A DNA stretch of 36,654 nt, from assembly GCA_027485575.1 (NCBI GenBank), contig JAIXQU010000162.1, positions 1 through 36,654 on the forward strand, read 5' to 3'. The notes under the pieces are model-generated. The model did not search any database. It saw only the letters and a list, made by a program, of their open reading frames with translations, and was not told the DNA's origin. A program made the translations under genes and the position numbers. Source of the stretch: Cytophagaceae bacterium. GTDB lineage: Bacteria; Bacteroidota; Bacteroidia; Cytophagales; Flexibacteraceae. Positions within the stretch are counted from its first letter, which is position 1. Every line of letters starts with the position of its first letter. Below, in pieces: positions 6,620-29,742 of the stretch.

Positions 6620-7219
6620 TTAATGAAAAAACAACAAAAAGGCAAAAAGATAAATCCACAAAGCATCCAGAAAATGCCAGTAAGTAGTACTCAATTCAAT
6701 TCCTAAAATATTTTTGGAATGAACTTTAAATTGAAAGGTTTTAACGGTAATAATCAGTACAAAAATAATGGCAGAGATTAAGTGCAGGGCATGAAGTCCG
6801 GTCAAAACATACAGAAATGAACCAGCCACATTGTTACCAACAAAATAGACATTGATGCCTACAAGATAAACCCATGCGTAAAACTGAGTAACTAAAAAAC
6901 CAATCCCCAAAAGACTGGTAATAATCATCCAACCTTTTACCTGGTCCAGATTATCCTTTTTTGCCTGATAAAACGCAATATGGTGGGTTACTGAACTTAA
7001 AACCAATATGATGGTCGTTACCCAAAAAATAGGTGGTAACTCAAAATCAACCCAATTCCCTTCTGATTTTCTAACAATATAACCAGAGGTGAGCGAAGCA
7101 AATATCATAACCACGCTCAGCAAAAAAAGCCACATGCTGAACTTCTTTGGATTCATACCCAACGTAGGTTGAGCTACATCAGATTCTTGTTCTACCATAG
7201 GAGATTTATAGGAACTCAT
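6620..7219 (-). CDS. ctaE: Cytochrome c oxidase subunit III
   Basis: This 199-aa integral membrane protein (also called coxC) has about five transmembrane segments. Family signatures are FLLSVVMIFASLTSGYIVRK near the N-terminus, YAWVYLVGINVYFVGNNVAGSFLYVLTGLHALHLISAI, and STTYWHFLDALWIYLFAFLLFF at the C-terminus. It stabilises subunit I of the proton-pumping aa3-type oxidase. Length matches the short five-helix form of subunit III. The ATG overlaps the ctaB stop by 4 bp (ATGA), indicating coupled translation. It is the last gene of the respiratory operon. A second subunit III-like gene and a subunit IV gene, often found next in related clusters, are absent; recQ follows instead. Confidence 0.93.
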   Translation of the reverse strand: MSSYKSPMVEQESDVAQPTLGMNPKKFSMWLFLLSVVMIFASLTSGYIVRKSEGNWVDFELPPIFWVTTIILVLSSVTHHIAFYQAKKDNLDQVKGWMIITSLLGIGFLVTQFYAWVYLVGINVYFVGNNVAGSFLYVLTGLHALHLISAIIFVLIITVKTFQFKVHSKNILGIELSTTYWHFLDALWIYLFAFLLFFH

Positions 7220-8061
7220 ATTTTATCAAAAGCTAAAAGAAACTGCACTATGGGCAGATAAATAAAAGAATAGAACATGACCCGCTTTGCCGTAACATCT
7301 GTTAGTTTTTTCATGTGGATCAAGGTCACGATTAAAAAACCAATTCCTAACAAAAAAGTTATAACTAAATAATAAACCCCTGTCAACTGAAGAAACGATG
7401 GGAATAGTGAAATCAAAACCAGGGCCACTGTATAAATAAAAATATAGTAGGCAGAATTGGCATCCTTTTCACGCCCAAATGGAAGGAGCCTGAAACCACC
7501 CCTTTGATAATCCTCGTCTAAAACCCATGCAATGGCCCAGAAATGAGGAAATTGCCAAAAAAACTGAATGCCAAACAGGAGATAATAATCCGGTTGAAAA
7601 TTCCCACTTGCAGCTACACATCCAACCAAAACAGGTAGAGCTCCCGGAAAAGCGCCTATCAATACCGACAGCGGAGATTTGGTTTTGTAAGGAGTGTAAA
7701 TAAAAACATAGAGGGCAAATGACACAAAAGACAGGACAGATGCAAATAGATTAAACCTGAACCCTATACCCAAAATTCCCAACAAAAGAAGAACAAACCC
7801 AAAAATAGCAGCATTGGTTTCATTCAAATCCTGGGTCGGCAACGGTCTCATTTTAGTACGATTCATTTTGGCATCCAACTCTTTCTCAATCACTTGATTA
7901 AAAAGATTAGCTGAACCTGTAATGAAAAAACCATAGATACCCAATTCCAGAATCTGGGTGAAAACCAGAGGCAAATCGGTTGCATAAACAAAGGATAAAA
8001 TAGTAGAAATTACCACCAATAAACTAAGCCGCGGTTTAAGCAGCGTCCAATAGGATTTCAT
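7216..8061 (-). CDS. ctaB: Heme O synthase (protoheme IX farnesyltransferase)
   Basis: A UbiA-family membrane prenyltransferase (cyoE homologue) that transfers a farnesyl group to heme B to make heme O, the precursor of heme A. Visible motifs are LLKPRLSLLVV at the N-terminus, the first Asp-rich motif region NLFNQVIEKELDAKMNRTKMRPLP, YTPYKTKSPLSVLIGAFPGALPVLVG, and the second region WQFPHFWAIAWVLDEDYQRGG; nine hydrophobic segments follow the family plan. I start at the ATG at 8061 (281 aa, MKSYWTLLKPRLS), which matches family N-termini. An in-frame start at 8106 would add 15 residues and overlap ctaA by 14 bp. It feeds CtaA, encoded just upstream, and its 3' end overlaps ctaE by 4 bp. Confidence 0.92.
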   Translation of the reverse strand: MKSYWTLLKPRLSLLVVISTILSFVYATDLPLVFTQILELGIYGFFITGSANLFNQVIEKELDAKMNRTKMRPLPTQDLNETNAAIFGFVLLLLGILGIGFRFNLFASVLSFVSFALYVFIYTPYKTKSPLSVLIGAFPGALPVLVGCVAASGNFQPDYYLLFGIQFFWQFPHFWAIAWVLDEDYQRGGFRLLPFGREKDANSAYYIFIYTVALVLISLFPSFLQLTGVYYLVITFLLGIGFLIVTLIHMKKLTDVTAKRVMFYSFIYLPIVQFLLAFDKI

Positions 8062-8092
8062 GGATACAAAAATGGCAGGATTTAATTTGCTT

Positions 8093-9064
8093 TCAACCAG
8101 AAACATTGCTGTTCACATTCCTTTCAGGAAATTTTAATAACAACCAGACCTGGGCGCAAACAACTGCAAAGCCAAAAAACAGGTGAAACGGTTGTGCAAA
8201 CTCTGGAAAATCGAAGTAGGCCAGAATTACGCCACTTAATATCAAAACAATAGATATCAATAGGGGTAAAAATGAATATTTCAAATGTTCAATCAAAAGT
8301 TTATTCCCTGATTTAAAAATCTGAAAAAATAGAATGAGAAATACGAGTAGAGAAAAACTCCTGTGAACTAAAAATTTCCAATCAAGTGTTTCGGTGTACA
8401 AGTTCCGTGAGCCATAGTCATATTTTTTAAACAAGACATCAACCTGAGAACGAACCTCCGTACCCAGAAAAAACTGAACCAAAAGGAATACAAATCCCAA
8501 AATAACTATGGAAGGAATTTTCACTCTTTTTGAACTAAGAATTTGACCTTTAGCAAAATAAGAAAAATGGAGAGAACCCAATAAAGCAAGTGCAATTAAC
8601 AAGGCAACAACAAGGTGAATGGTTATAATTAAAGGCTTCAAATCTGTTGAAACGACTTTAGACCCAAGCCAGCCTTGAAAAACCACAAGAACAAAAGAAA
8701 CGGTACTGTAAAATCTGGCTTTGACATTTGCTTTGGCCACAAAAGACCATATAAATTGAATCAGGATTGAAAAACCAATAACTACCCCAAGCAAACGATT
8801 GAGATATTCAGTCCAGGTTTTGATTGGATTAAAAACAAGTTTTCCATTTTCAGAGGAAAGCGGATCATTCCAGTATGCCAAAGGAACATCTGCATATTCC
8901 AAAGGTGGAACCCACAAACCAAAACACTTGGGCCAATCAGGACAACCCATTCCCGCACCAGTACTCCGTACTATACCACCCACAAAAACAAGGAAAAGGA
9001 CCAAAAAGAAAGAGGTCCTAATGGACCTCCTGTAAATTTTAAATCCTTTAAGATTATCAGGCAT
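8093..9064 (-). CDS. ctaA: Heme A synthase
   Basis: Membrane heme A synthase (COX15/CtaA family, 323 aa) that oxidises the C8 methyl of heme O to a formyl group. Eight hydrophobic helices form two four-helix halves. Family marks are GGIVRSTGAGMGCPDWPKCFG (cysteines C41 and C47), the histidines in TIHLVVALL (H150), VHRSFSLL (H234) and PFHLFFGF (H294), and EYLNRLLG. In the last motif Asn89 stands where Bacillus CtaA has a heme-ligand His. I start at 9064 because this ATG overlaps the ctaD stop by 8 bp and gives the usual N-terminus; the frame is open to 9100. It sits inside the oxidase operon, so heme A supply and oxidase subunits share one transcript. Confidence 0.92.
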   Translation of the reverse strand: MPDNLKGFKIYRRSIRTSFFLVLFLVFVGGIVRSTGAGMGCPDWPKCFGLWVPPLEYADVPLAYWNDPLSSENGKLVFNPIKTWTEYLNRLLGVVIGFSILIQFIWSFVAKANVKARFYSTVSFVLVVFQGWLGSKVVSTDLKPLIITIHLVVALLIALALLGSLHFSYFAKGQILSSKRVKIPSIVILGFVFLLVQFFLGTEVRSQVDVLFKKYDYGSRNLYTETLDWKFLVHRSFSLLVFLILFFQIFKSGNKLLIEHLKYSFLPLLISIVLILSGVILAYFDFPEFAQPFHLFFGFAVVCAQVWLLLKFPERNVNSNVSG

Positions 9065-10928
9065 GTGCTTTAGAAGCATTGGTCTCTTCAACCAAATCAA
9101 CTTCGCCTTCCAGATTAGAACTTAATGTAGCAGAAAAAGGAGTGGTCTGTAGAATGAAGTCTTCCTCAGCACCTGGCTTACTGTAATCATATGGCCATCT
9201 GTACACATGAGGAATTTCACCAACCCAGTTTCCGTGACCTGGATTAATAGGTGTTGTCCACTCCAGTGTATTCGCTCTCCACGGATTCATCGGCGCTCTT
9301 CGACCTCTGAAAATGCTGTAGAAGAAGTTGAACACAAATAAGAATTGAGCAACAAAGGTTACAATAGCCGCAGTAGATACAAATGCATTTAAGTCACCGA
9401 AAGTTTTAAAGGCATCATAACTGGTAAATGAATAATATCTTCTTGGGAAACCTGCAATGCCAGTATAGTGAAGTGGGAAAAACACGCAATACACACCAAT
9501 GAAAGTCATCCAGAAGTGAATATAACCAAGCTTTTCATTCAGCATTCTACCGAACATTTTCGGAAACCAATGGTAAACACCAGCAACCATCCCAAAGAAC
9601 GACGCAGAGCCCATCACAAGGTGAAAATGCGCTACAACGAAATAGGTGTCGTGTAATTGAATATCAATTGCGGAGTTACCCAATACAACACCAGTCAAAC
9701 CACCGGAAATAAAGAAGGAAACCAAACCAATTGAAAATAACATACCTGGGGTGAAGACAATATTTCCACGCCACAAAGTGGTGATGTAGTTAAATGCCTT
9801 TACTGCAGATGGAATGGCTATTATCAAAGTCAGAAACATAAATATTGAACCCAAAAATGGATTCATACCTGTTACAAACATGTGATGCGCCCAAACAATA
9901 AAAGAAAGGAGAGTAATGGCCATGATAGAACCGATCATAGCTTTGTATCCAAAAATTGGCTTTCTGGAATTTACAGCAATAATTTCTGAAGTAATTCCAA
10001 GCGCAGGAAGAAGTACGATATAAACCTCCGGATGACCTAAGAACCAAAAAAGATGTTGGAACAAAATTGCACTTCCACCAACGTTAGGCAATGCCTCACC
10101 ATTGATATAGATTTCAGAAAGATAAAAGCTAGTTCCCATGCTTCTATCAAACATTAATAACAATGCGGCAGACAGGAGAACAGGGAATGAGAGAATACCG
10201 ATAATGGCAGTAAAGAAAAACGCCCAGATTGTAAGAGGGAGACGGGTAAAAGTCATACCCTTTGTCCTCATGTTAATTACAGTTGAAACATAATTAATAC
10301 TACCAAGCAAAGATGAAACTATAAATAGAGCCATTGCGAAAAGCCACATGGTCATACCTGTGCCAGAACCTGGAGCTGCCTGAGGCAATGCGCTCAAAGG
10401 TGGATATATTACCCAACCCCCTGAAGCCGGACCAGTTTCAATAAATAAAGAACAAAGCATGATAACGGAACTTGCAAAGAAGAACCAATACGAAAGCATG
10501 TTCAAAAAGCCTGAAGCCATATCTCTGGCACCAATTTGAAGAGGAATCAGGAAATTTGAGAAAGTCCCACTTAAACCAGCAGTTAATACAAAGAAAACCA
10601 TGATGGTTCCGTGCATGGTAACCATTGCCAGATAAAATTCAGGATTTAATTTCCCACCTTCAATCCAACCACCTAGGATAGGCTTGAGGAATGACATGTC
10701 GGTATTTGGAAATCCCAATTGAATTCTGAAAATGGTGGACAAAGTGCCGCCGATTATCGCCCAGAAAATCCCTGAAATAAGAAATTGCTTGGCAATAACT
10801 TTATGGTCCTCCGAAAAGATGTATTTAGTTAAAAATGTCCCTTCCTCATGATCATGATCGTCATGATGATCGTGCCCGTGGGCATGAGTATCAACCGCTA
10901 TTGCAGGATTGTGATCTAAATTTGCCAT
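9057..10928 (-). CDS. ctaD: Cytochrome c oxidase subunit I
   Basis: Catalytic subunit of the heme-copper oxidase (coxA), 623 aa, twelve transmembrane helices. It reduces O2 at a heme a3-CuB centre and pumps protons. Residues expected as ligands are visible: H106 (MHGTIMVFFVL) and H436 for heme a, H299, H348 and H349 for CuB, and H434 for heme a3 (HDTYFVVAHFHLVMG). GHPEVYI (E301, Y303) gives an A1-type oxidase with the D-channel glutamate and the cross-linked Tyr. The N-terminus carries an extra His/Asp-rich stretch (HAHGHDHHDDHDHEE, residues 15-29) before the first helix, which could bind metal. It follows ctaC by 6 bp, and its stop overlaps the ctaA start. Confidence 0.96.
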   Translation of the reverse strand: MANLDHNPAIAVDTHAHGHDHHDDHDHEEGTFLTKYIFSEDHKVIAKQFLISGIFWAIIGGTLSTIFRIQLGFPNTDMSFLKPILGGWIEGGKLNPEFYLAMVTMHGTIMVFFVLTAGLSGTFSNFLIPLQIGARDMASGFLNMLSYWFFFASSVIMLCSLFIETGPASGGWVIYPPLSALPQAAPGSGTGMTMWLFAMALFIVSSLLGSINYVSTVINMRTKGMTFTRLPLTIWAFFFTAIIGILSFPVLLSAALLLMFDRSMGTSFYLSEIYINGEALPNVGGSAILFQHLFWFLGHPEVYIVLLPALGITSEIIAVNSRKPIFGYKAMIGSIMAITLLSFIVWAHHMFVTGMNPFLGSIFMFLTLIIAIPSAVKAFNYITTLWRGNIVFTPGMLFSIGLVSFFISGGLTGVVLGNSAIDIQLHDTYFVVAHFHLVMGSASFFGMVAGVYHWFPKMFGRMLNEKLGYIHFWMTFIGVYCVFFPLHYTGIAGFPRRYYSFTSYDAFKTFGDLNAFVSTAAIVTFVAQFLFVFNFFYSIFRGRRAPMNPWRANTLEWTTPINPGHGNWVGEIPHVYRWPYDYSKPGAEEDFILQTTPFSATLSSNLEGEVDLVEETNASKAHA

Positions 10929-10934
10929 AAAAAA

Positions 10935-12026
10935 TTAATATGCTTTTGTTACTAACTTACCAATAGAATTTATAGATGCTGTAGCACCTGATGACTTTTT
11001 ATTGTCCTCAACGGATTGCTCAGCTAATTTTTTCAGGTTATCAGGTACCTTTTTCAGATAATCTGGATTTTTGGCGAGAAAAGATTGCTGACTTTTTATC
11101 CAAGCCTCATACTCATCCTCATCGTCCACAATCAGCCTCATGCGCATTCCAAAATGACCACTTCCACACACCTCAGTACAAGCAATTTCATAAGTAAAAT
11201 CAGGTTTACCCAGTTGTGCCTTCATCTCAGCAGATGTCTTTGTAGGCACAAACCAAAAATGAGTAGGCATTCCTGGAACCGCATCCATCTTTACACGAAA
11301 ATGAGGAGCAAACACGGAATGTAGAACATCTCTGGCCCTTATTTTAAACAAAACCGGTTTTCCGACAGGAATATGGACCTCTCCAGCCATAAAATCATCA
11401 AATGAATTTTTATCTGCGAAGTCAATTCCAACTGAATTCAAATCATCAATTTTTCTAAAGTTGTGTTTTCCAAGTGCCTTGTCCATACCTGGATATCGCA
11501 CCAACCAGTTAAACTGTTTACCAACCAACTCAACAACGACGGCATCGGCAGGTGCAGCTTTTGTAATGTCAGACCACGCTTTCCAACCGGTAAAAACCAG
11601 AAGCGATAAAACAATGGCTGGAATTACCGTCCAGATAAACTCAAGTCGATGGTTGACAGGGTAGAATAATGCTTTATTTCCTTCTTTAAACTGATAAACG
11701 TATGGAAAGAAAAATAGCAAAACATGGGTAGCAATAAATACAATTGTAATAACTGCCATAGAAAACCAAAATAAGTTATCTGTGATAACCCCATGCAAAG
11801 AAGAAGCTTCAGGAAGGTAAAACTCTCTTGAAGAAACTGTTAACCAAATGAATCCAATTAATCCAAAAACAAAGAATACGGGGAATAATAAACCATTTAT
11901 TTTATTACTGAGTCCAGCTCTTTTTTCGTTTGATTTAGTGAAAACATCAATCAATACCTGAGCTCTTACCAAAAGTCCAATGACAATAAGTAAAAGGACA
12001 ACTGCGGCTATAATCAAATAAAACAT
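10935..12026 (-). CDS. ctaC: Cytochrome c oxidase subunit II
   Basis: Electron entry subunit (coxB), 363 aa. The N-terminal part has more hydrophobic helices than classical subunit II (about residues 2-20, 46-63, 84-108 and 130-147). A periplasmic cupredoxin domain follows. CuA ligands are H236 (DVLHSVFAPHFRVKMDAVPGM) and C283, E285, C287, H291 and M294 in CTEVCGSGHFGM. GWKAWSD and QFNWLVRYPG are the aromatic region that passes electrons to heme a. There is no CxxCH, so this is not a caa3-type fused subunit; electrons must arrive from ActE, the N-terminal heme of ActA or a separate cytochrome. It sits directly after actF (14 bp), consistent with an ACIII-oxidase supercomplex as known from Flavobacterium johnsoniae. 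Confidence 0.94.
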   Translation of the reverse strand: MFYLIIAAVVLLLIVIGLLVRAQVLIDVFTKSNEKRAGLSNKINGLLFPVFFVFGLIGFIWLTVSSREFYLPEASSLHGVITDNLFWFSMAVITIVFIATHVLLFFFPYVYQFKEGNKALFYPVNHRLEFIWTVIPAIVLSLLVFTGWKAWSDITKAAPADAVVVELVGKQFNWLVRYPGMDKALGKHNFRKIDDLNSVGIDFADKNSFDDFMAGEVHIPVGKPVLFKIRARDVLHSVFAPHFRVKMDAVPGMPTHFWFVPTKTSAEMKAQLGKPDFTYEIACTEVCGSGHFGMRMRLIVDDEDEYEAWIKSQQSFLAKNPDYLKKVPDNLKKLAEQSVEDNKKSSGATASINSIGKLVTKAY

Positions 12027-12040
12027 ATCGAATCTATATA

Positions 12041-13327
12041 TTAAATATCGTGGTGAAGAGACTCCTGAAGCATTGGGTGATTTTTAGCAAGCAAACCAAG
12101 TTTAGAAATTTGCGTGCTTATCACATAAATAAAAGCAGAAGCAAAAACGGTTACAGTCCCAAATTCAAGGAATCCGAATCCGCTTGTTCCTTTTGTAACG
12201 CCTGGCATGATCATCAAATAAAAATCTAACCAGTGTCCAATTATAATTGCTATTGCTGCTATTTTCAAAAGTATAGTCTGCCTTTTTGCATCTCTTGTCA
12301 TTAAAAACAGAAATGGAAATAAAAAGTTTATAATTATGTTAAAAAAGAATAAACCCCTGTAATGACCATCATAAAGGTGCATTCGTTCTTTGAAGTAAAT
12401 TATTTCCTCAGGGATATTGGCATAGTAGATTAGCAAAAACTGAGATACCCATAAGTAGGTCCAGAACACAGAGAAAGCAAACATGAATTTACCTAAATCA
12501 TGCAAGTGATTCTGATTTACAAAAGAAAGTAAACCCTTCTCTTTCAATAATAAAACAGTCAAAACGATAGTAGCAATACCTGAAACCCACCAACTGGCAA
12601 AATGGTACCAACCAAATAATGTACTATACCAGTGAGGATTTATAGACATGGTCCAGTCCCAGGCAACCATAGAAGTTGATACTCCAAAAATAATCAGGAA
12701 AACTGCTGAAACAGTAATTGTCTTATTGTAATAAGTCAAGCCTCCCTCAAGGTCCTCCTTCGCAGAATAACCACGGATAATCCTCCAGATAAAATACCAG
12801 AGACCAAAAAACAAAACCATTCTAACAAGGAAGAAAGGCGTGTTGAGGAATGCACTTTTTCCTTGCAATACCTCATCGTGGGCTACAGCGTCGGCATGCG
12901 TCCAATGAAAGATATCATGTCCACCAAGAAGGAAAATAACCAACATGGCAACAAAACTGAAAGGTAAAAAAGCACCGAATGCTTCCGGAATTCTTTTAAT
13001 GGTAACGGACCATCCTGCCCAAGCAACGTATTGGATGGAAACAAAGAAAACACCAATTAGAGATATTCCCGTGAAAAACAAGGCGTTGTGCCAAAGGACT
13101 GCATAAAGTCTGGCTGTCCAGGTTGGGGCATGCGCACCACCATGACCAGCAGTTGCGCCGTGGGCAACTTCATGTCCATGGTCGCCTCCACCCATAATAA
13201 GCATAGCAAGGCCCACACCAAACATGGCCAGACCAATAAATAGCCACATCAAAACACGCTTCTTTGCCTCAGGGGTGAAGTCGTATTTTTCGTCTAAATT
13301 ATAATGTACTGTAGAATGAGATCCCAT
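12041..13327 (-). CDS. actF: Alternative complex III subunit ActF
   Basis: The protein has 428 aa and about ten membrane-spanning segments. It is the second NrfD/PsrC-like quinol-site subunit of the quinol:cytochrome c oxidoreductase and a paralogue of ActC. Recognisable stretches are KKRVLMWLFIGLAMFGVGLA, WTARLYAVLWHNALFFTGISLIG, MVAWDWTMSINPHWYSTLFGWYHFASWWVSG and GHWLDFYLMIMPG. The loop after the first helix is rich in His and Gly (GGGDHGHEVAHGATAGHGGAHAP, about 47-69). It lies 3 bp downstream of actE and 14 bp upstream of ctaC, within the operon order actABCDEF. Confidence 0.92.
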   Translation of the reverse strand: MGSHSTVHYNLDEKYDFTPEAKKRVLMWLFIGLAMFGVGLAMLIMGGGDHGHEVAHGATAGHGGAHAPTWTARLYAVLWHNALFFTGISLIGVFFVSIQYVAWAGWSVTIKRIPEAFGAFLPFSFVAMLVIFLLGGHDIFHWTHADAVAHDEVLQGKSAFLNTPFFLVRMVLFFGLWYFIWRIIRGYSAKEDLEGGLTYYNKTITVSAVFLIIFGVSTSMVAWDWTMSINPHWYSTLFGWYHFASWWVSGIATIVLTVLLLKEKGLLSFVNQNHLHDLGKFMFAFSVFWTYLWVSQFLLIYYANIPEEIIYFKERMHLYDGHYRGLFFFNIIINFLFPFLFLMTRDAKRQTILLKIAAIAIIIGHWLDFYLMIMPGVTKGTSGFGFLEFGTVTVFASAFIYVISTQISKLGLLAKNHPMLQESLHHDI

Positions 13328-13330
13328 TGA

Positions 13331-13945
13331 TTATTGTGCTGAACTTCCGAGAGATTTAACGTAATGAACTATTTTCCAACGCTCATCAGGATTAACCTGT
13401 GAACCATGAGGCCACATTCTGCCTTTCCCGTGTGTGATCACGTGGAAAATGTGACCATCCGTAACAACTTTTGCTTTTGCAACCAGATTGGCAACACCTT
13501 TGTATTGATCGGCCACCTTTCCATCACCCAACCCGCCTTCGCCATGGCAGGACTGACAATATCGACCATAAAGTACCTTCCCATCTTCAACCGTCTCTTT
13601 GGACAACGGAATCGGATTTATTAGTACCTTGGCAGCATACTCCAAGCTGTCTGCAGGAATATTGTATGCAAAAATTTCATTTGCCAAACTTCCTTTCTTC
13701 ATTCCGGAATATTGCTTTCGGGCAACAGTCCCAGCTACAGGCTTTCTCTGATTTAATCCACCTGCATTTACATTGATCGTATTGTAAAATTCCGAAGACG
13801 TATCAGTTACCTGAGAATAAGGCTCAAATGCAATTGCATGAGCCATTTGTGGTGCATATTCAAGACCTGGATCATTGGGGTCTTTGCCGCAACTAAAGAG
13901 CAGCACAATGCTTGATACAGCGATTACTCCTTTAAGTGAAATCAT
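13331..13945 (-). CDS. actE: Alternative complex III monoheme cytochrome subunit ActE
   Basis: This is a 204-aa cytochrome c lipoprotein. The N-terminus is a lipoprotein signal (VSSIVLLFSC, lipidated Cys19). Heme is attached at C130/C133 with H134 (YCQSCHGEGGLGDGKVA). Met177 (GKGRMWPHGSQV) is the likely sixth ligand. The terminal helix (DERWKIVHYVKSLG) is typical of class I cytochromes c. In ACIII this subunit accepts electrons from the multiheme ActA and delivers them towards the oxidase CuA site. Its ATG abuts the actD stop with no gap. Confidence 0.92.
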   Translation of the reverse strand: MISLKGVIAVSSIVLLFSCGKDPNDPGLEYAPQMAHAIAFEPYSQVTDTSSEFYNTINVNAGGLNQRKPVAGTVARKQYSGMKKGSLANEIFAYNIPADSLEYAAKVLINPIPLSKETVEDGKVLYGRYCQSCHGEGGLGDGKVADQYKGVANLVAKAKVVTDGHIFHVITHGKGRMWPHGSQVNPDERWKIVHYVKSLGSSAQ

Positions 13946-14485
13946 TTAATGCTTTTCTACGATGTCTTTAATATTAACTTCTGAGGCACCCGTTGCCTTT
14001 ATCATTTCAGTGAGTTTCTCAACAGAAAACTGCTTGTTCTTTTCAATATCAAAAACAAGGATAAACTTGTCATCGGAACTCCTTGGGTCAAAAACAGTTT
14101 TTTGTGAACCTGGACCTAATCCTGAGGCAAGAAGGAATGTACCAACCATGCCCAAGGCGGCAAATAGTACAGTTAATTCAAAACTTACAGGAATAAAGGA
14201 AGGAAAAGGCAAATGGGCTTTCCCACCAATATTCATCGGCCAATCAAATCCAAGTGTTGATATCTGAAGGGTTAAAGCACAGGTAGTACCAGTTGCTCCA
14301 AACATAAAAGCTGCCTGCGGAAGACGGCTTCTCTTAATACCCAACGCAGGGTCGATCCCGTGAATTGGAAAGGGTGTAAAGGCTTCCAGGATTTTTGCAC
14401 CCTGCTCCCTTAAATTTTTAATAGCGGCTAACAAGACATCATCGTCGTCAAACACACCAACTAAGTAACTTTTTACTTCTGACAT
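13946..14485 (-). CDS. actD: Alternative complex III membrane subunit ActD (DUF3341)
   Basis: The protein has 179 aa. An N-terminal soluble part (VKSYLVGVFDDDDVLLAAIKNLREQGAKILEAFTPFPIHGIDPALG) is followed by two transmembrane helices (around AAFMFGATGTTCALTLQISTL and SFELTVLFAALGMVGTFLLASG) and a C-terminal soluble ferredoxin-like segment (DDKFILVFDIEKNKQFSVEKLTEMIKATGASEVNI). This is the DUF3341 plan of ActD, which has no cofactor and scaffolds the complex. Gaps are 9 bp to actC and zero to actE. Confidence 0.92.
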   Translation of the reverse strand: MSEVKSYLVGVFDDDDVLLAAIKNLREQGAKILEAFTPFPIHGIDPALGIKRSRLPQAAFMFGATGTTCALTLQISTLGFDWPMNIGGKAHLPFPSFIPVSFELTVLFAALGMVGTFLLASGLGPGSQKTVFDPRSSDDKFILVFDIEKNKQFSVEKLTEMIKATGASEVNIKDIVEKH

Positions 14486-14494
14486 GATGTTATT

Positions 14495-15910
14495 CTAATT
14501 GTGTGAAACAGTTTCGTTGGACTTAACTTTAGCATTTCCAGTTGCCTGGCCAGTTTGAACATCTCCTGCTGATTTCAAAATAGCTTTTACTTCTGCCATA
14601 TTGATAACAGGAAGGAATTTTGAAAACAAAAGGAATAAGGTAAAGAACAAACCAAATGAGTTGGCATAATCTCCAATATCAAACCAGGTTGGAGTAAAGT
14701 AAGCCCAACTTGACGGAAGATAATCCCTGTGAAGTGAGGTTACTATAATTACAAAACGCTCAAACCACATCCCAATATTTACAACAATGGATATAACAAA
14801 AGTTGCCAGGATGCTTCTTCTTACGGATCTAAACCAGAATAATTGAGGAGAAAACACATTGCATGTCATCATTGCCAGATAAGACCACCAATATGGGCCT
14901 GTTGCTCTGTTGATAAATGCATAACTTTCATATTCAACTCCTGAATACCAGGCAATAAAAAACTCAGTTATATAAGCAACACCCACAATTGAACCGGTAA
15001 GTGTAATAACTTTATTCATCGACTCAACGTGAGCCAAAGTAATATAATCTTCTAAATGAAATACCTTTCTGGTAATCAACATCAATGTCAATACCATTGC
15101 AAAACCAGAGAAGATAGCTCCTGCCACAAAATAAGGAGGGAAAATCGTGGTGTGCCATCCTGGAACCAATGAAGTTGCAAAGTCCATACTTACAATTGTG
15201 TGTACAGAAAGAACAAGCGGTGTTGACAAACCTGCCAAAACCAAAGAAACTGCCTCAAATCTTGACCAATCCTTTGCAGAACCGTTCCAACCAAAAGCCA
15301 TTGTTCCATAAATCAATCTGGAGATTTTGTTGGTTGCTCTATCTCTGATGGTCGCTAAATCTGGTATTAAACCAATGTACCAGAAAACAACCGAAACAGT
15401 TAAGTATGTTGAAATCGCAAATACATCCCAAACCAAAGGAGAATTAAAGTTCACCCAAAGAGAACCATATGTATTTCCTAAAGGAAGTGCCCAATGTGCC
15501 AACCATGGACGACCCATGTGAAGAAGAATAAATGAGGCTGCACAAAGTACCGCAAAAATGGTCATGGCCTCTGCAGCACGGTTAATAGAAGTTCTCCATT
15601 TCTGTCTGAATAACAACAAGATGGCAGAAATAAGCGTACCAGCATGACCGATACCTACCCACCATACGAAGTTTGTAATGTCCCAGGCCCAACCTACTGT
15701 TTTGTTAAGACCCCAAACACCAATTCCGACAAACCATGTGTACATTACACAAAATACACCAACTCCCAATAGAAGGACTGAAAAAGTAAACGCAATGATC
15801 CAACTTTTGGATGGTTTACCTTCCACCTGTCTGCAGATGTCATTGGTAATATCGGCCCAGGTTTTTCCTCCTGTTACAAGAGGTTCCCTGACTGATGAAG
15901 TTACGTTCAT
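14495..15910 (-). CDS. actC: Alternative complex III quinol-binding membrane subunit ActC (NrfD/PsrC family)
   Basis: This 471-aa protein has about ten transmembrane helices. It belongs to the polysulfide-reductase NrfD/PsrC family and in ACIII carries the menaquinol oxidation site beside the iron-sulfur subunit ActB. Distinctive stretches are [77 protein letters not shown] and [25 protein letters not shown]. The C-terminal ~45 residues are a polar tail. It starts 6 bp after actB and is followed after 9 bp by actD. Confidence 0.94.
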
Positions 15911-15916
15911 AATATA

Positions 15917-18900
15917 TTAAGCTTTATTTCTGATTTTTGATAAATAAACTACGGAAGGCTTGGTATTAATTTCCTCAAGCAAGGTGTAGGCCCTTCCATC
16001 TTTATGCTCTGCTAGTAACTGATATAACTTACCTTCTTTGTCAGCCATATCTCCAAAAGTAATTGCATCTGTAGGACAAGCCTGCGCACAAGCGGTATTG
16101 ATCTCACCGTCAATTGGTCTTCGACCTTCTTTTTTGGCGTACAATTTACCCTCCTGAACTCTTTGGATGCACATGGAGCATTTCTCCATAACTCCTCTTG
16201 CTCTGACAGTTACATCTGGATTCAATACCATTTTTCCAAGGTTGTTGTTGACGTTAAAGTCAAAATCCTTGTTTTCAGGATAAGAAAACCAGTTAAAACG
16301 CCTTACTTTATATGGACAGTTGTTGGCGCAATATCTTGTTCCAATACAACGGTTATAAGTCATTTGATTTAAACCTTCTGTACTGTGTGTGGTTGCTAAT
16401 ACCGGACACACTGTTTCACAAGGTGCATTGTTACAATGCTGGCACATAAGAGGTTGGAATACAACCTCTGGGTCTTCAGAAGGGATTTCAGAAGCTGCAT
16501 ACATATCCAGCAATCCTACTCCATCTTTCTTGGCCTTTTCCTTGCTCATATCAGAGCTGTAGTATCGGTCAATTCTGATCCAATGCATTTCCCGACGGTT
16601 CAAGACCTCTTGTTTTCCAACTACAGGAACATTGTTTTCAACCTGACAAGCCAAAACACATGCACCACATCCAAAACAAGTATTCAAATCCACAACCATG
16701 CTCCACTGATGGTTAGGTCGCTTATTTGGACCCATCGCCATTTCATTTGGAACACGCTCGATTTCGTTATCAAACCAAAGCGAGAAATTTGCTGCTGGTT
16801 CTTCTCCGTTTGGAGTTGAAATTTTAGGGAAATATCTACCAGAAACAGGATCCTTCAAATATTTATCAAGTGTAGTTTCCTGAATTGCTGGTCGGCCCAT
16901 TACAGTATGGTGTGTCTGAACGTGGGCTACCAAATGCACCTCATCATTCTTCTCAACCTTCACACCTTCAATTGCATAAGAAACTGTAGAATTCACAAGT
17001 TTCAAAAGCGGATAGGCATTTACACCAATATCTTTTCCTGTCTTACCAGTTTCTGACCTACCATATCCAATAGCCAAACCAACAGTTCCAACATTTTGAC
17101 CTGGCTGAACCAAAGCAGGAAGAGCAATGGTTTTGTTGCCTACTTTAAGATTAACTTTTGCAGTTTTTCCATCAGTAACCGTTAAACCTAATTCTTTAGC
17201 TAAAGCGGAAGGGATAACCAAATAGTTTTCCCAACATGCTCTGGTTACCGGATCAGGAAACTCTTGAAGCCATGGATTATTCGCCTGAGCACCAGAACCC
17301 AGGCCTACCTTTTCGTAGATAACGAGTTCAAAACCAGCGCCTGAAGCCTTATAATCCGCAGATATTCCAGCTTCTACACCAGCCATATCAAAATTAAGAC
17401 TTGGCTCAGGTAAAATAACTGTGGGTACAGGAGCTACAGCAATTACCCTTCCTGTAGAATCTGTTGCAGATGAAGCGTCAGTTTGAACTCTTGGATTTGA
17501 TCCGTTCACTTCAAACACACCATCATGCAAACTATAATTCCAGAAATCTTTGAAGCTTCCATATCCGTACTTTTGTTTTGGATATAGATTAGTTTTCCAG
17601 AAACCCTTTACAAAATCGTAATAGGTGGTATTTATACCTGCCCAAAGAAGCAAAGATTCCTCTGCCTGACGAGTTTTATAGATTGGAGAAATGGTAGGTT
17701 GAACCAAAGAATAGTGATTCTTTTTTGGTTCAGCATCACCCCATGCTTCTAAGAAATAATGATTGGGTGCAAGCAATTTACAGGCAGCAGCTGTTTCATC
17801 TGGTGCGTATGCAAAAGATACGGACAAACCTGCCTTTCCAATTGAAGTTTTAATTTCAGCTCCTCTTGGATGGTCATATACTGGATTTCCATCCAGAAAA
17901 AGAACAGCACCAACCTGACCAGCTGTTAAAGCATCAACAAATTGATTAAACTCAGCATCGTTTCCTTTTTTTACATAAGACGGCGAAGCAAATGAAATGG
18001 TGTTTCCAAAATTGCCTAAAAGTTGATTCAATTGTAGAACCAGCTTTTGAACATTTTTATCATTTGAACCATCTACAATTAATCCTGCGCCTTTATTATC
18101 AACAAGTTGCTGAGCAGCTTCTTTAATATATCTTGAAGTTTTCGGAGCTGGTGTTCCAATTGGGCTTCCACCTAATTTGGCAACTACCTCATTATACAAA
18201 GCCGCAACGACCAATCCTTTTTCAGAAGGACGAATGTTGGTTCTGTAATCCGCATTTGCACCAGTAATTGAAAATAAGGATTCAAAAACGAAAAGCCTGG
18301 ACATTTCCTTTTTGGAAGGACCCACTTTTCTGGTTTTGGAAAACTGCCTGCTATACTCAGTTGAAGATAACCATGAACCTAAAAAATCGGCACCAAAGCT
18401 TACAACAACTTTGGCTTTTGAAAAATCATAAGATGGAATTGCACGTGTTCCGGAAACTTCTTTGGAAGCCTCCAATAAACCATGGGCTGAATATGCATCA
18501 TATTGAACATGCTTCACATTGCCATACGCAGATGAAAAAGCAGCAATTGCGGCATTAGATGAAGGACTGATATTGGTTCCGGATACAAGATAAATCGCCT
18601 GTCCAGCTGCTTTGGCAGCATCCAAACCTTGTTTTACCTCTGCATCAAGCGCCGACCATTCTATATTTGAATTCCCTTTTTTGGGGTTTTTAAATCGGTT
18701 GTTGTCATAAAGACCCAAAACTGAAGCCTGGGTTTTAACACTTGTCCCACCCGCTGAGATGGAAGAAAGTTTATTGCCCTCAATTTTGATTGGCCTACCT
18801 TCCCGTGTTTTGACCAGGATTGAGCAATAATCTCCACCATCATAGAAAGAAGATGCATAAAAATTTGCAATTCCCGGATCGTATTCTTCTGGTTTATTCA

Positions 18901-19120
18901 GAAGCGGAATTGCATGTTTAACGGGTGCTTCGCAAGCTGCCAAAGAAACGGCTGCTACTCCAAAGCCCATTGCTTTTAGAAAATCTCTTCTATCCGGGCC
19001 GGAACTTTTTTCCTGATCGCTGGGAAGATTAAACTCACTTTCTGAATTTTTAACAAAATCCAAATCATTGGTCAACTCCTCGTAACCCCTCCAATAAACC
19101 TTTTGATTATTATCGCTCAT
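15917..19120 (-). CDS. actB: Alternative complex III iron-sulfur/molybdopterin-like subunit ActB
   Basis: The protein has 1067 aa and fuses a molybdopterin-oxidoreductase-like N-terminal region to a C-terminal ferredoxin domain. A Tat motif (DRRDFLKAMGFG, RR at 44-45) with a lipobox (SLAAC, Cys63) indicates folded export and membrane anchoring. By family knowledge the large domain lacks a molybdenum cofactor. From about residue 813, four cysteine clusters follow: CFGCGACVLACQVENN, CQHCNNAPCETVCPV, CIGTRYCANNCPYK and CSMCIQRV...CAQACPTD. They are expected to hold three 4Fe-4S clusters and one 3Fe-4S cluster; the GT in CIGTRYC marks the site lacking a cysteine. Electrons pass from ActC through these clusters to ActA. 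It lies 24 bp after actA. Confidence 0.95.
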   Translation of the reverse strand: MSDNNQKVYWRGYEELTNDLDFVKNSESEFNLPSDQEKSSGPDRRDFLKAMGFGVAAVSLAACEAPVKHAIPLLNKPEEYDPGIANFYASSFYDGGDYCSILVKTREGRPIKIEGNKLSSISAGGTSVKTQASVLGLYDNNRFKNPKKGNSNIEWSALDAEVKQGLDAAKAAGQAIYLVSGTNISPSSNAAIAAFSSAYGNVKHVQYDAYSAHGLLEASKEVSGTRAIPSYDFSKAKVVVSFGADFLGSWLSSTEYSRQFSKTRKVGPSKKEMSRLFVFESLFSITGANADYRTNIRPSEKGLVVAALYNEVVAKLGGSPIGTPAPKTSRYIKEAAQQLVDNKGAGLIVDGSNDKNVQKLVLQLNQLLGNFGNTISFASPSYVKKGNDAEFNQFVDALTAGQVGAVLFLDGNPVYDHPRGAEIKTSIGKAGLSVSFAYAPDETAAACKLLAPNHYFLEAWGDAEPKKNHYSLVQPTISPIYKTRQAEESLLLWAGINTTYYDFVKGFWKTNLYPKQKYGYGSFKDFWNYSLHDGVFEVNGSNPRVQTDASSATDSTGRVIAVAPVPTVILPEPSLNFDMAGVEAGISADYKASGAGFELVIYEKVGLGSGAQANNPWLQEFPDPVTRACWENYLVIPSALAKELGLTVTDGKTAKVNLKVGNKTIALPALVQPGQNVGTVGLAIGYGRSETGKTGKDIGVNAYPLLKLVNSTVSYAIEGVKVEKNDEVHLVAHVQTHHTVMGRPAIQETTLDKYLKDPVSGRYFPKISTPNGEEPAANFSLWFDNEIERVPNEMAMGPNKRPNHQWSMVVDLNTCFGCGACVLACQVENNVPVVGKQEVLNRREMHWIRIDRYYSSDMSKEKAKKDGVGLLDMYAASEIPSEDPEVVFQPLMCQHCNNAPCETVCPVLATTHSTEGLNQMTYNRCIGTRYCANNCPYKVRRFNWFSYPENKDFDFNVNNNLGKMVLNPDVTVRARGVMEKCSMCIQRVQEGKLYAKKEGRRPIDGEINTACAQACPTDAITFGDMADKEGKLYQLLAEHKDGRAYTLLEEINTKPSVVYLSKIRNKA

Positions 19121-19144: not shown

Positions 19145-20440
19145 TTAATAATGACACTTAGAACATTCAAGACCCCCAATATCTTCCACTTTCATGGTCG
19201 ATTTACCATATTTAGTTTGGTGTAGGTCTACCATTTTATCGTAGTAGGCATTGCCTTCTGCTTTAACAACCGTTTCACGGTGACAGTTGATACACCAACC
19301 CATTGTGAGTGGAGAATACTGTTGAATAACCTCCATTTCTTTAACCGGGCCATGACATTTTTCACATTCGATACCACCCACTTTTACGTGTTGGGCATGG
19401 TTAAAATATGCCAAATCAGGTAAATTGTGGACTCTAACCCATTTAATAGGTGTATTTTTTTGAACTGCCTTCCAGATTTTTTTGATTTCTGGCGACTCGG
19501 TTTTGATTACATTGTGGCAATTCAAACAAATGTTGGCTGCAGGAATTGTCGCTGATTTTCCTTTGTTAACACCTGTGTGGCAATAGTTGCAATCAATTTC
19601 ATACATACCAGCATGCAATTTGTGAGAAAAAGCAATTGGCTGGTCTGGTGAATATCCTTGCTGGATACCAACAGAATAGGCTTTGTCAAAAACTGCTTTT
19701 CCAACTACCACTACAAAAATGAAAGCTACAACTCCTTTAAAAAGTGGATGGCCAAAAAATACAGACCAGTTTACCTTACCTTCAATCTGGTCTAAATCCG
19801 TTTCTGAAAGTTCATCTTTTCTCTGTTCAATAATTCTGGACATCAGGTTGATGACAACCAACAACAAAATAATAACCACCGCTAGAGTGATTAATAAAAT
19901 TCCAACAACGGGGGCAAGCAAACCTGAGTCTGAATCAGCTTCAGAACCAGTTTCTGTTGCTGCAGTACCTCCAGCAGGCGCAGCTGCAGCAACCGGGGTT
20001 GGATTTTCGCTTTCTTTTACGATATAAGCAATTACATTATCAATATCTCCAGCAGAAAGGAAATCATGATTGGGCATGTATTGCTTGTATTTGTCATAAA
20101 GGCCTTTTGCATACGCATTTCCTCCGTCAATCACTTTTTGAGGATATTTGATGAAGTTAGCCATTGCAGCTTTGCTGGGCCATCTTTTATGGGCATCCTT
20201 CAATGCCGGACCAACCACAACATCACCTATTGCATGGCATTGCTTACAATTTGCCTTGAAAACTGCCTCTCCAGCGGCTGCATCTCCACCTCCTCCTGAG
20301 GCGACAGCAGCAGGTGCTGCAGCAGCGACATTAGCAGTAGAAGTACTGTCCGCCAATGTTGTGTGACTAGAAATAGCTCCGGTCAAAAGGACAAAAGAAA
20401 AGAAAAAACTTTTAATTTGACTTACAAGTCGTTGATTCAT
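19145..20440 (-). CDS. actA: Alternative complex III multiheme cytochrome subunit ActA, with an N-terminal monoheme domain
   Basis: The protein has 431 aa and six CxxCH heme sites. After a signal peptide (1-30) and an Ala/Gly linker, a class I cytochrome c domain carries CKQCH (C65-H69) with a likely Met ligand in YMPNHDFLSAGDID. A second low-complexity linker (PVAAAAPAGGTAATE) and hydrophobic segments (around 173-200 and ~230-250) follow. The C-terminal pentaheme part has CNYCH, CLNCH, CEKCH, CINCH and, at the very end, CSKCHY. The pentaheme part is the classical ActA; the fused monoheme domain lengthens it and may act as the mobile electron shuttle. It is the first gene of the operon, 43 bp downstream of a canonical promoter -7 box. 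Confidence 0.93.
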   Translation of the reverse strand: MNQRLVSQIKSFFFSFVLLTGAISSHTTLADSTSTANVAAAAPAAVASGGGGDAAAGEAVFKANCKQCHAIGDVVVGPALKDAHKRWPSKAAMANFIKYPQKVIDGGNAYAKGLYDKYKQYMPNHDFLSAGDIDNVIAYIVKESENPTPVAAAAPAGGTAATETGSEADSDSGLLAPVVGILLITLAVVIILLLVVINLMSRIIEQRKDELSETDLDQIEGKVNWSVFFGHPLFKGVVAFIFVVVVGKAVFDKAYSVGIQQGYSPDQPIAFSHKLHAGMYEIDCNYCHTGVNKGKSATIPAANICLNCHNVIKTESPEIKKIWKAVQKNTPIKWVRVHNLPDLAYFNHAQHVKVGGIECEKCHGPVKEMEVIQQYSPLTMGWCINCHRETVVKAEGNAYYDKMVDLHQTKYGKSTMKVEDIGGLECSKCHY

Positions 20441-20482: not shown

Positions 20483-20513
20483 CAAAACTAAGGAGCAAGA
20501 GATAAGGATCAAA
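20483..20513 (-). promoter_or_regulatory. Bacteroidota-type promoter for the act-cta operon
   Basis: On the minus strand TTTG (20513-20510) is followed after 19 bp by TAGTTTTG (20490-20483). This matches the known Bacteroidota sigma-A consensus TTTG / TAnnTTTG with ideal spacing. The predicted start near 20476 gives a ~36-nt leader to the actA ATG. No comparable promoter was seen in the short gaps inside the operon. Confidence 0.75.
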
Positions 20514-20623: not shown

Positions 20624-20650
20624 TTTTATTTAGAATCATTCTAAATAAAA
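20624..20650. promoter_or_regulatory. Perfect 27-bp palindrome, Fur-family-like operator
   Basis: The 13-nt arms TTTTATTTAGAAT (20624-20636) and ATTCTAAATAAAA (20638-20650) are exact reverse complements around a single C. The core TTAGAAT-C-ATTCTAA has the 7-1-7 layout of Fur/PerR/Irr-type boxes. It is 85 bp upstream of the CruF-like start and about 110 bp upstream of the actA -35-like TTTG. There is no T-tract following a GC stem, so it is not a terminator. The cognate regulator is not in this window. Confidence 0.6.
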
Positions 20651-20735: not shown

Positions 20736-21398
20736 TTGAAAAAATCCGGAAAGCCAAAGAGTTATTTGTCATCAGAACAAAAAATTTCATTGGGAATTAT
20801 TGTTTTGTTTCACTTGGTCGGTATCTTTTTATTGAACTTTACTAAAGGTGGAATTTATCAGATTGCACTTGATATAGTTCCGTTAAATATCATTTTTACT
20901 GTTTTGGTGGTTTTAAAATACCAAAGTAATTGGAATACAGGAATTATGATTTTTGGTGCTTTGGGAATACTCTCAGGATATTTCATCGAAGTTCTGGGAG
21001 TCAATACAGGCTGGATATTTGGTAATTATCAATATGGTGATGTCTTAGGATTAAAATTATTAAACACCCCATTGCTAATAGGATTGAACTGGTTTTTAAT
21101 CACTTATTGTTTGGGAAACCTTATAGAAAACTTTAAAATCAGTAAACTATTTAGAATATTACTTTCAGCCTCAATTTTAGTTTTGTTTGATTACTTTATG
21201 GAGCCAATTGCAATGAAACATGGCTTTTGGGAATGGCAAAACGGCAACATCCCGAATCAAAACTATATTGGTTGGTTTTTTACAGCCATTTTTATTTCAG
21301 CCATTTTTCAATTTACAACCTGGGAAAAAACAAATAAGGTTGCCTCATTTACATTTCTAATCCAGCTTTTGTTTTTCCTGACTCAGAATATTCTTTAG
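20736..21398 (+). CDS. CruF-like carotenoid biosynthesis membrane protein
   Basis: This 220-aa, mostly hydrophobic protein has about seven membrane helices. The segment FIEVLGVNTGWIFGNYQYGDVLGLKLLNTPLLIGLNWFLITY, the later LFDYFMEPIAMKHGFWEWQNGNIPNQNYIGWFF and the overall length match the DUF422/CruF carotenoid family. Characterised members hydrate the 1',2' double bond of linear or monocyclic carotenoids; the substrate here is unknown. The start is a TTG at 20736: an in-frame stop lies directly upstream (20730) and there is no early ATG, so TTG is the only start that keeps the first helix. The next gene on the strand encodes a CarH-like photoreceptor regulator. No other carotenoid gene is in the window. 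Confidence 0.75.
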   Translation: MKKSGKPKSYLSSEQKISLGIIVLFHLVGIFLLNFTKGGIYQIALDIVPLNIIFTVLVVLKYQSNWNTGIMIFGALGILSGYFIEVLGVNTGWIFGNYQYGDVLGLKLLNTPLLIGLNWFLITYCLGNLIENFKISKLFRILLSASILVLFDYFMEPIAMKHGFWEWQNGNIPNQNYIGWFFTAIFISAIFQFTTWEKTNKVASFTFLIQLLFFLTQNIL

Positions 21399-21533: not shown

Positions 21534-22424
21534 ATGATAAACTCCTACACAATAAAAGACCTATCCCAAATTACAAGAATCAAGCCCCATACGCTTAGAA
21601 TTTGGGAGCAACGATATGGCATAATAAATCCCAAAAGGACCGAAATCAATACCAGGGTGTATTGTCAGGAGGAACTGAAATATTTATTGAATGTAGTTAT
21701 CCTATACAATGAAGGACAAAAAATAAGCAACATTGCCAAACTATCAAAAGATCAGCTTAGTGATAAAGTAAAACATCTCTCGGAGGAATCTTTAGAATTT
21801 CCAACTCAAATACAGGCACTCGTGGTAGCTATGCTTGAACTTGATGAAGATCGATTTGAGCGTCAATTGAATAAAAATATCTTATCGTTTGGATTGGAAG
21901 AAACAATTGTTTCAATCGTATATCCATTTTTAAAACATATAGGAGTTTTGTGGCAGACCAACTCCGTTAATCCAGCCCAGGAACATTTTATTACCAATCT
22001 GGTAAGGCAAAAATTAATTTCGGCAATTGATGGAATTCCATTAGGAATTACGGAGAAAAATGCCAGAAAATTCATGCTGTATCTTCCGGAAGGCGAACTT
22101 CATGAGATAGGCCTTTTATTTGCCTGGTATGTATTGAAGCGAAATGGACAAAAAGTGATTTATCTTGGTCAAAGTCTTCCTATCAGCGATTTGAAGATTG
22201 TAGATGAAGCCCACAAACCTGATGTGATATTGACTGTAATAACCTCAGCACCATGCCAGGAAGACGTCCAGCCTTATCTTGATGCCCTAAAACAATTATT
22301 TCCAGATACCAAAGTTTGGTTAAGTGGATTCCAAGTCGTTTCACAAGAACTAAAAATACCAAACAACTTTTCGGTTGTGATGGACCCCAATGCAATTAAA
22401 AAAATGGTCAAGGAGCTTGTTTAA
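21534..22424 (+). CDS. MerR-family regulator with B12-binding photoreceptor domain (CarH/LitR-like)
   Basis: The protein has 296 aa. Residues 5-75 are a MerR winged helix (YTIKDLSQITRIKPHTLRIWEQRYGIINPKR). Residues ~90-165 are the helical cap of B12 sensors, with the light-sensing W-x9-EH motif as W140 and E150-H151 (LWQTNSVNPAQEH). Residues ~180-296 are a Rossmann B12-binding fold containing E-x-H-x-x-G as E188-L-H190-E-I-G193; H190 would be the lower cobalt ligand. In known CarH/LitR proteins adenosylcobalamin drives tetramer formation and repression in the dark, and light breaks the Co-C bond and releases DNA, inducing carotenoid genes. All diagnostic residues are present, so light sensing is a reasonable inference. 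It lies 135 bp after the CruF-like gene on the same strand. Confidence 0.88.
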   Translation: MINSYTIKDLSQITRIKPHTLRIWEQRYGIINPKRTEINTRVYCQEELKYLLNVVILYNEGQKISNIAKLSKDQLSDKVKHLSEESLEFPTQIQALVVAMLELDEDRFERQLNKNILSFGLEETIVSIVYPFLKHIGVLWQTNSVNPAQEHFITNLVRQKLISAIDGIPLGITEKNARKFMLYLPEGELHEIGLLFAWYVLKRNGQKVIYLGQSLPISDLKIVDEAHKPDVILTVITSAPCQEDVQPYLDALKQLFPDTKVWLSGFQVVSQELKIPNNFSVVMDPNAIKKMVKELV

Positions 22425-29727: not shown

Positions 29728-29742
29728 TTAGAATTGTTCTAA
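29728..29742. promoter_or_regulatory. Inverted repeat upstream of rpoD
   Basis: TTAGAA-TTG-TTCTAA is a perfect 6-3-6 inverted repeat. It resembles the core of the 27-bp palindrome at 20624-20650 (TTAGAAT-C-ATTCTAA), with one arm position broken. It lies 24-38 bp before the rpoD ATG, where it could sit in the promoter or leader. The match is short, so chance is possible. Confidence 0.35.

Follow-up and report, generated by a model that had tools for sequence, protein, structure and literature searches.

A Fur-box palindrome conserved upstream of actA is a probable operator of the alternative complex III-oxidase operon in Bacteroidia

A palindrome upstream of the alternative complex III (ACIII)-oxidase operon of a Cytophagaceae bacterium matches the Fur box of Bacteroidota at its core, and the same site recurs upstream of actA across the class Bacteroidia. 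The explanation that best accommodates these observations jointly, and which we consider probable, is that the palindrome serves this operon as a Fur-family operator and that iron-loaded Fur activates the operon. The window, that is the whole stretch of DNA analysed, is 36,654 nt in length.

The palindrome was defined from the sequence together with an estimate of its chance expectation, and occupies positions 20624-20650 (no strand assigned). Sequence inspection confirmed that it is a perfect 27-bp palindrome, as the initial annotation had described, with exact arms in a 13-1-13 arrangement (TTTTATTTAGAAT-C-ATTCTAAATAAAA; in full, TTTTATTTAGAATCATTCTAAATAAAA). No other exact odd palindrome in the window has arms of more than 8 nt. 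Markov simulation gave an expectation of approximately 0.012 palindromes with arms of at least 13 nt per window, which scales to the order of one by chance per 3.9-Mb genome. The length of the palindrome alone therefore proves little. The initial description of the palindrome as far beyond chance thus failed for the palindrome alone, but stood once the identity of its sequence and its conservation were considered.

The core of the palindrome, a putative operator of the ACIII operon, lies at 20628-20646 (ATTTAGAATCATTCTAAAT; no strand assigned), and was recognised by its match to a published consensus and its conservation upstream of actA. In Riemerella anatipestifer, a member of the Bacteroidota, the Fur box ATTTAGAATTATTCTAAAT was predicted in silico, and gel shifts with four promoters supported the prediction (PMC5609570). 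All 18 non-central positions of the window core agree with this 19-bp consensus, and the core has the form of the Fur-box motif, a 9-1-9 palindrome (ATTTAGAATnATTCTAAAT) with a 7-1-7 core inside. The suggestion, originally made from the 7-1-7 geometry, that this is a Fur-family operator was therefore borne out, the sequence being that of the Bacteroidota Fur box (PMC5609570). The boxes listed for Riemerella are as tolerant at their G and C positions as the actA sites described below, and like the motif studied here they are found at TonB and haem-uptake genes (PMC5609570). The Riemerella boxes differ in that they repress iron-uptake genes from less than 100 bp before the start codon, whereas here the box belongs to a respiratory operon and is located at phased distances beyond the promoter (PMC5609570). 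Of 194 genomes of the order, 55 contained the exact 17-mer TTTAGAATnATTCTAAA and none its reversed control.

The operon adjacent to the palindrome is encoded on the minus strand. The first gene, actA (19145-20440, start codon at 20440), encodes the ACIII cytochrome c subunit with mono-haem and c7-type multihaem domains, and the best solved relative of its product is subunit A of the F. johnsoniae ACIII (6btm_A). It is followed by actB (15917-19120), assigned as the iron-sulfur subunit from 4Fe-4S Pfam domains and operon position; actC (14495-15910), encoding the NrfD-type quinol-oxidising membrane subunit; actD (13946-14485; Pfam ActD); and two more ORFs of the cluster (13331-13945 and 12041-13327), which from gene order are presumably actE and actF. 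Genes for haem-copper oxidase subunits II (10935-12026), I (9057-10928) and III (6620-7219) and for haem A synthesis (ctaA, 8093-9100; ctaB, 7216-8106) are also present. The predicted actA promoter, also found in the congeneric genomes G001 and G002, consists of a -33 element TTTG (20510-20513, minus strand) and a -7 element TAGTTTTG (20483-20490, minus strand) separated by a 19-bp spacer, and the -7 element is 42 nt from the start codon. The distance from the 19-bp core to TTTG is 114 nt, in agreement with the approximately 110 bp first given. On the other side of the palindrome, on the plus strand, are a gene for a CruF-like carotenoid hydratase (20736-21398, with a TTG start codon at 20736) and a gene for a MerR/B12-binding (CarH-like) regulator (21534-22424).

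Conservation of the site was scored in 89 genomes of the order, over the 500 bp preceding actA. A match of at least 15/18 positions was found in 75 of the 89 (reversed-motif control, 2), and a match of at least 16/18 in 63 (control, 0), with sites spanning 16 of the 19 families of the order. When 400 or 500 bp upstream of actA were scanned in 86 genomes from other orders of the class, 62 had a match of at least 15/18, compared with 1 for the control. The site in F. johnsoniae and 79 relatives, all from a single genus, is TTATTTAGAATTGATATAAATTGAT. Comparison of box and actA coordinates placed exact boxes next to actA in five more genomes from four other families. The proposed link between this site and an iron-hungry ACIII-oxidase operon therefore holds throughout the class. 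The initial annotation was to be doubted if the palindrome were absent from orthologous actA upstream regions and had no copies near iron genes; we found the site at orthologous actA genes, and further copies near iron genes as described below.

The same comparison bears on which of the two divergent flanks is controlled. The initial annotation noted that the site is closer to the CruF-like gene. On a reading in which the site controls the CruF-like and CarH-like genes, it would repress carotenoid synthesis in iron-replete cells. The site is indeed nearer to the start codon of cruF (85 bp) than to that of actA (183 bp), and a weak candidate promoter is located 30 bp beyond the box on the cruF side. 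A distance of 85 bp also falls inside the 100-bp range reported for the Fur boxes of Riemerella (PMC5609570), and dual control is possible in the source genus. Against this, among the genomes examined cruF was beside actA only in the source genus, whereas the site accompanied actA throughout the order and the class. The gene upstream of the site had the same direction as actA in 31 genomes and was divergent in another 30, and because this orientation varies, the site tracks actA and not the neighbour. Within the actA-cruF intergenic region the exact 17-mer was retained in congener G001, while the box was degenerate in congeners G002 and G003; in G004, cruF is located away from actA and lacks the site. 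The view that proximity makes cruF the likelier target was thus not upheld. We regard control of the carotenoid genes as very unlikely, and on synteny and conservation we rejected the CruF-like gene as the main target and judged it a chance neighbour of the ACIII operon.

The pattern of variation within the sites indicates what kind of element they are. In the order-level actA sites the right C hardly varies and the left G may be replaced by A or T. The other orders of the class showed the opposite asymmetry, with the left G fixed and the right C variable. One half-site always remains intact in its G or C, and changes at pair 5-13 are non-compensatory (variants in both sets: A-C 22, T-C 15, G-A 23 and G-T 22). 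Such non-compensatory changes are expected of DNA bound by a protein and not of an RNA stem, and an RNA hairpin was rejected on these grounds. That the palindrome arose by chance, or is an RNA hairpin or terminator, is highly improbable: although one palindrome this long is expected per genome of this size, the site is conserved upstream of actA in the order and the class, its G and C at pair 5-13 vary without compensation, and the divergent start codons of actA and cruF are both downstream of it.

The motif was also found at genes of iron metabolism. In the order, the exact copies whose gene contexts were examined included some next to genes for TonB-dependent receptors, haem-oxygenase-like and HmuY-type proteins, one PepSY protein and one DUF4856 gene. 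At the family level, exact copies were found at a FecA-like receptor gene and at a hemA/peroxiredoxin pair. DUF4856/imelysin operons that had not been preselected carried a match of at least 15/18 within 250 bp upstream in 21 of 29 cases in the order (reversed control, 2). Upstream regions of succinate dehydrogenase (SDH) had the motif in 9 of 25 cases (control, 0), and it was present in 0 of 25 upstream regions of the cbb3 oxidase gene ccoN. In the source genome, the total of 15-mers with one or two mismatches was not above control, and we therefore confined the analysis to the gene contexts of the best matches; the best imperfect copies preceded a DUF4856-imelysin operon (C195) and sufB (C196). 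The latter box is 15 bp before sufB (L025, approximately 1169-1185 of G000 C196), which suggests iron control of iron-sulfur cluster assembly. In one family, exact boxes were observed by a response-regulator gene beside HmuY-type genes (L058, L059, L061, L062 and L063), and to judge from this gene context the response regulator may be an iron-controlled regulator of haem uptake. A near-palindromic, Fur-box-like site 21-24 bp before rpoD, the primary sigma factor gene (29728-29742, TTTAGAACAATTCTAAT on the minus strand), was not conserved in eight relatives; it is probably due to chance, and served as a negative control.

Three FUR-family proteins above the Pfam cut-off are encoded in the source genome: a Fur orthologue on contig C17 of G000, a PerR-like protein and a Zur-like protein. 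None of them reached the NCBIfam equivalog cut-offs, nor did any reach the cut-off for Irr. A Fur-like match, mostly a clear orthologue, was present in 89 of 98 genomes of the order. Fur is predicted to be the protein that binds the actA box. Caution is called for because G018, an apparently complete genome (one contig, 98%), gave no Fur match at 1e-8 and keeps the site both at actA (17/18) and at its imelysin operon (L088, L368). The site was likewise present in G041 and G067, fragmented assemblies with no Fur match at 1e-8. G018 would be accounted for by an ACIII operator with a different binder, which could be the PerR-like paralogue or else an activator unrelated to Fur with a motif that has converged on the Fur box; the source genome does encode PerR-like and Zur-like paralogues. 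In G009, one exact copy of the 17-mer is located between hemA and a peroxiredoxin-like gene. Genes of these two types are PerR-type targets in Bacillus. The same motif is nevertheless found at imelysin, TonB, HmuY and haem-oxygenase-like genes, and promoters that carry it are bound by the Fur of Riemerella (PMC5609570). We consider a binder other than Fur unlikely.

The position of the site relative to the promoter differs between actA and the uptake genes. A perfect TTTG-N18-21-TAnnTTTG promoter was found between the site and actA in 67 of 81 site-bearing regions and in 0 after a single shuffle of each region; for each region the best-scoring match was taken as the promoter, a choice that may be mistaken in individual genomes. 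Distances from the site to the -33 element cluster at 21-22, 32-33, 44, 85-90, 96-101, 105-111, 118-119 and 129, corresponding to a period of 10.7-10.8 bp (R 0.64 in 76 genomes, 0.69 by genus and 0.67 by family). This helical phasing was significant at the family level (p = 0.003 against jittered distances) and was measured in the source order only, class-level promoter assignment being weak. The centre of the actA box is 31 to 139 bp upstream of -33 (124 bp in the window). At actA, the site therefore has the upstream, helically phased placement of an activator operator in the order, although the window's own spacing of 114 nt falls off the main helical peaks. Placement overlapping or abutting the promoter, as in a repressor operator, was seen at most iron-uptake operons and not at actA: in distance lists compiled by hand, the box centre at uptake operons ranges from 48 bp downstream to 26 bp upstream of the start of -33, mostly overlapping or abutting the promoter, with the exceptions of one imelysin operon with a distant promoter and one with a doubtful promoter. 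In the hand-compiled SDH list, the phase is 10.1 compared with 0.1 for actA at a period of 10.7, or 0.7 bp apart; that of uptake genes is 2.9. Boxes at SDH cytochrome b genes in the actA helical phase were observed at L262, L264, L268, L276, L277, L279 and L283-L285, the source genome (C163) being included among them.

Expression data from a relative bear on the direction of control. In Elizabethkingia anophelis, RNA-seq showed that a quinol:cytochrome c oxidoreductase cluster was 4.1-8.6 times higher in iron-rich medium, where SDH was also up and siderophore genes were strongly down (PMC7221216). From its subunit names this cluster reads like ACIII, although the authors named it bc1, and the induction could alternatively be caused by indirect effects of iron (PMC7221216). 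Cytochrome genes of Riemerella also fall under iron limitation (PMC5429918). The upstream, phased position of the site and the iron-rich induction in Elizabethkingia therefore point to activation of ACIII by iron-loaded Fur. The initial annotation had instead considered repression through looping. Fur most commonly acts as a repressor, and for a site that can be 120-170 bp upstream of the transcription start it could operate through looping or displacement of an activator. Under such repression ACIII would be switched off when iron is plentiful, contrary to the Elizabethkingia data, and the promoter-overlapping placement usual at uptake genes was never seen at actA. Position upstream of the promoter, helical phasing and iron-rich induction in a relative all favour activation, and we judge repression improbable.

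We propose that iron-loaded Fur would bind the actA box, the core of which ends 114 nt before the -33 box in the window, and activate the actA promoter, presumably through direct contact with RNA polymerase. Activation of actA transcription by bound Fur would constitute an iron-sparing switch, in which cells build the most iron-demanding segment of their respiratory chain only if iron is at hand, while the same regulator, at boxes overlapping promoters, would repress iron-uptake operons. F. johnsoniae does not survive strong expression of actA (PMC8552683), which fits a need to keep expression under control; regulation of ACIII was not discussed in that genetic study (PMC8552683).

Direct activation by iron-loaded Fur occurs in Helicobacter and Neisseria. 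As proposed here, Fur in these bacteria is located upstream of the promoter and transcription increases when iron is plentiful; class-wide conservation and helical phasing are new to the present case. Small RNAs of the RyhB type carry out an iron-sparing response in which iron-rich respiratory enzymes, including SDH, are turned off when iron is short. The logic proposed here is the same and also includes SDH, but here the box itself appears to mediate control, at the level of the promoter. The Elizabethkingia study resembles our proposal in that the quinol:cytochrome c oxidoreductase cluster and SDH increase with iron, and differs in that neither an operator nor a regulator was proposed for the cluster termed bc1 (PMC7221216). 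In the literature searched, we found no description of Fur activation of ACIII or of Fur activation in Bacteroidota, no named regulator of ACIII, and no joint mention of 'alternative complex III' with 'ferric uptake regulator' or with 'iron-limited'. The box itself is of a known kind; the new part is its class-wide, helically phased placement upstream of ACIII as an operator.

ACIII serves a very large group of bacteria as their main quinol-oxidising complex. An operator that is identical to the Fur box and present class-wide would provide this complex with a testable regulator and a reason for it to follow iron supply. F. johnsoniae carries the site, its ACIII has been solved and strains with actA deleted exist, and hence it offers a direct test system. 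More tentatively, it is conceivable, at somewhat short of even chances, that Fur is a dual regulator across the class Bacteroidia, with the sign of its effect set by operator position: overlapping boxes would repress uptake, and phased upstream boxes would activate ACIII and SDH, replacing small-RNA iron-sparing systems. The sites described here provide a way to ask how one Fur may both repress and activate according to position.
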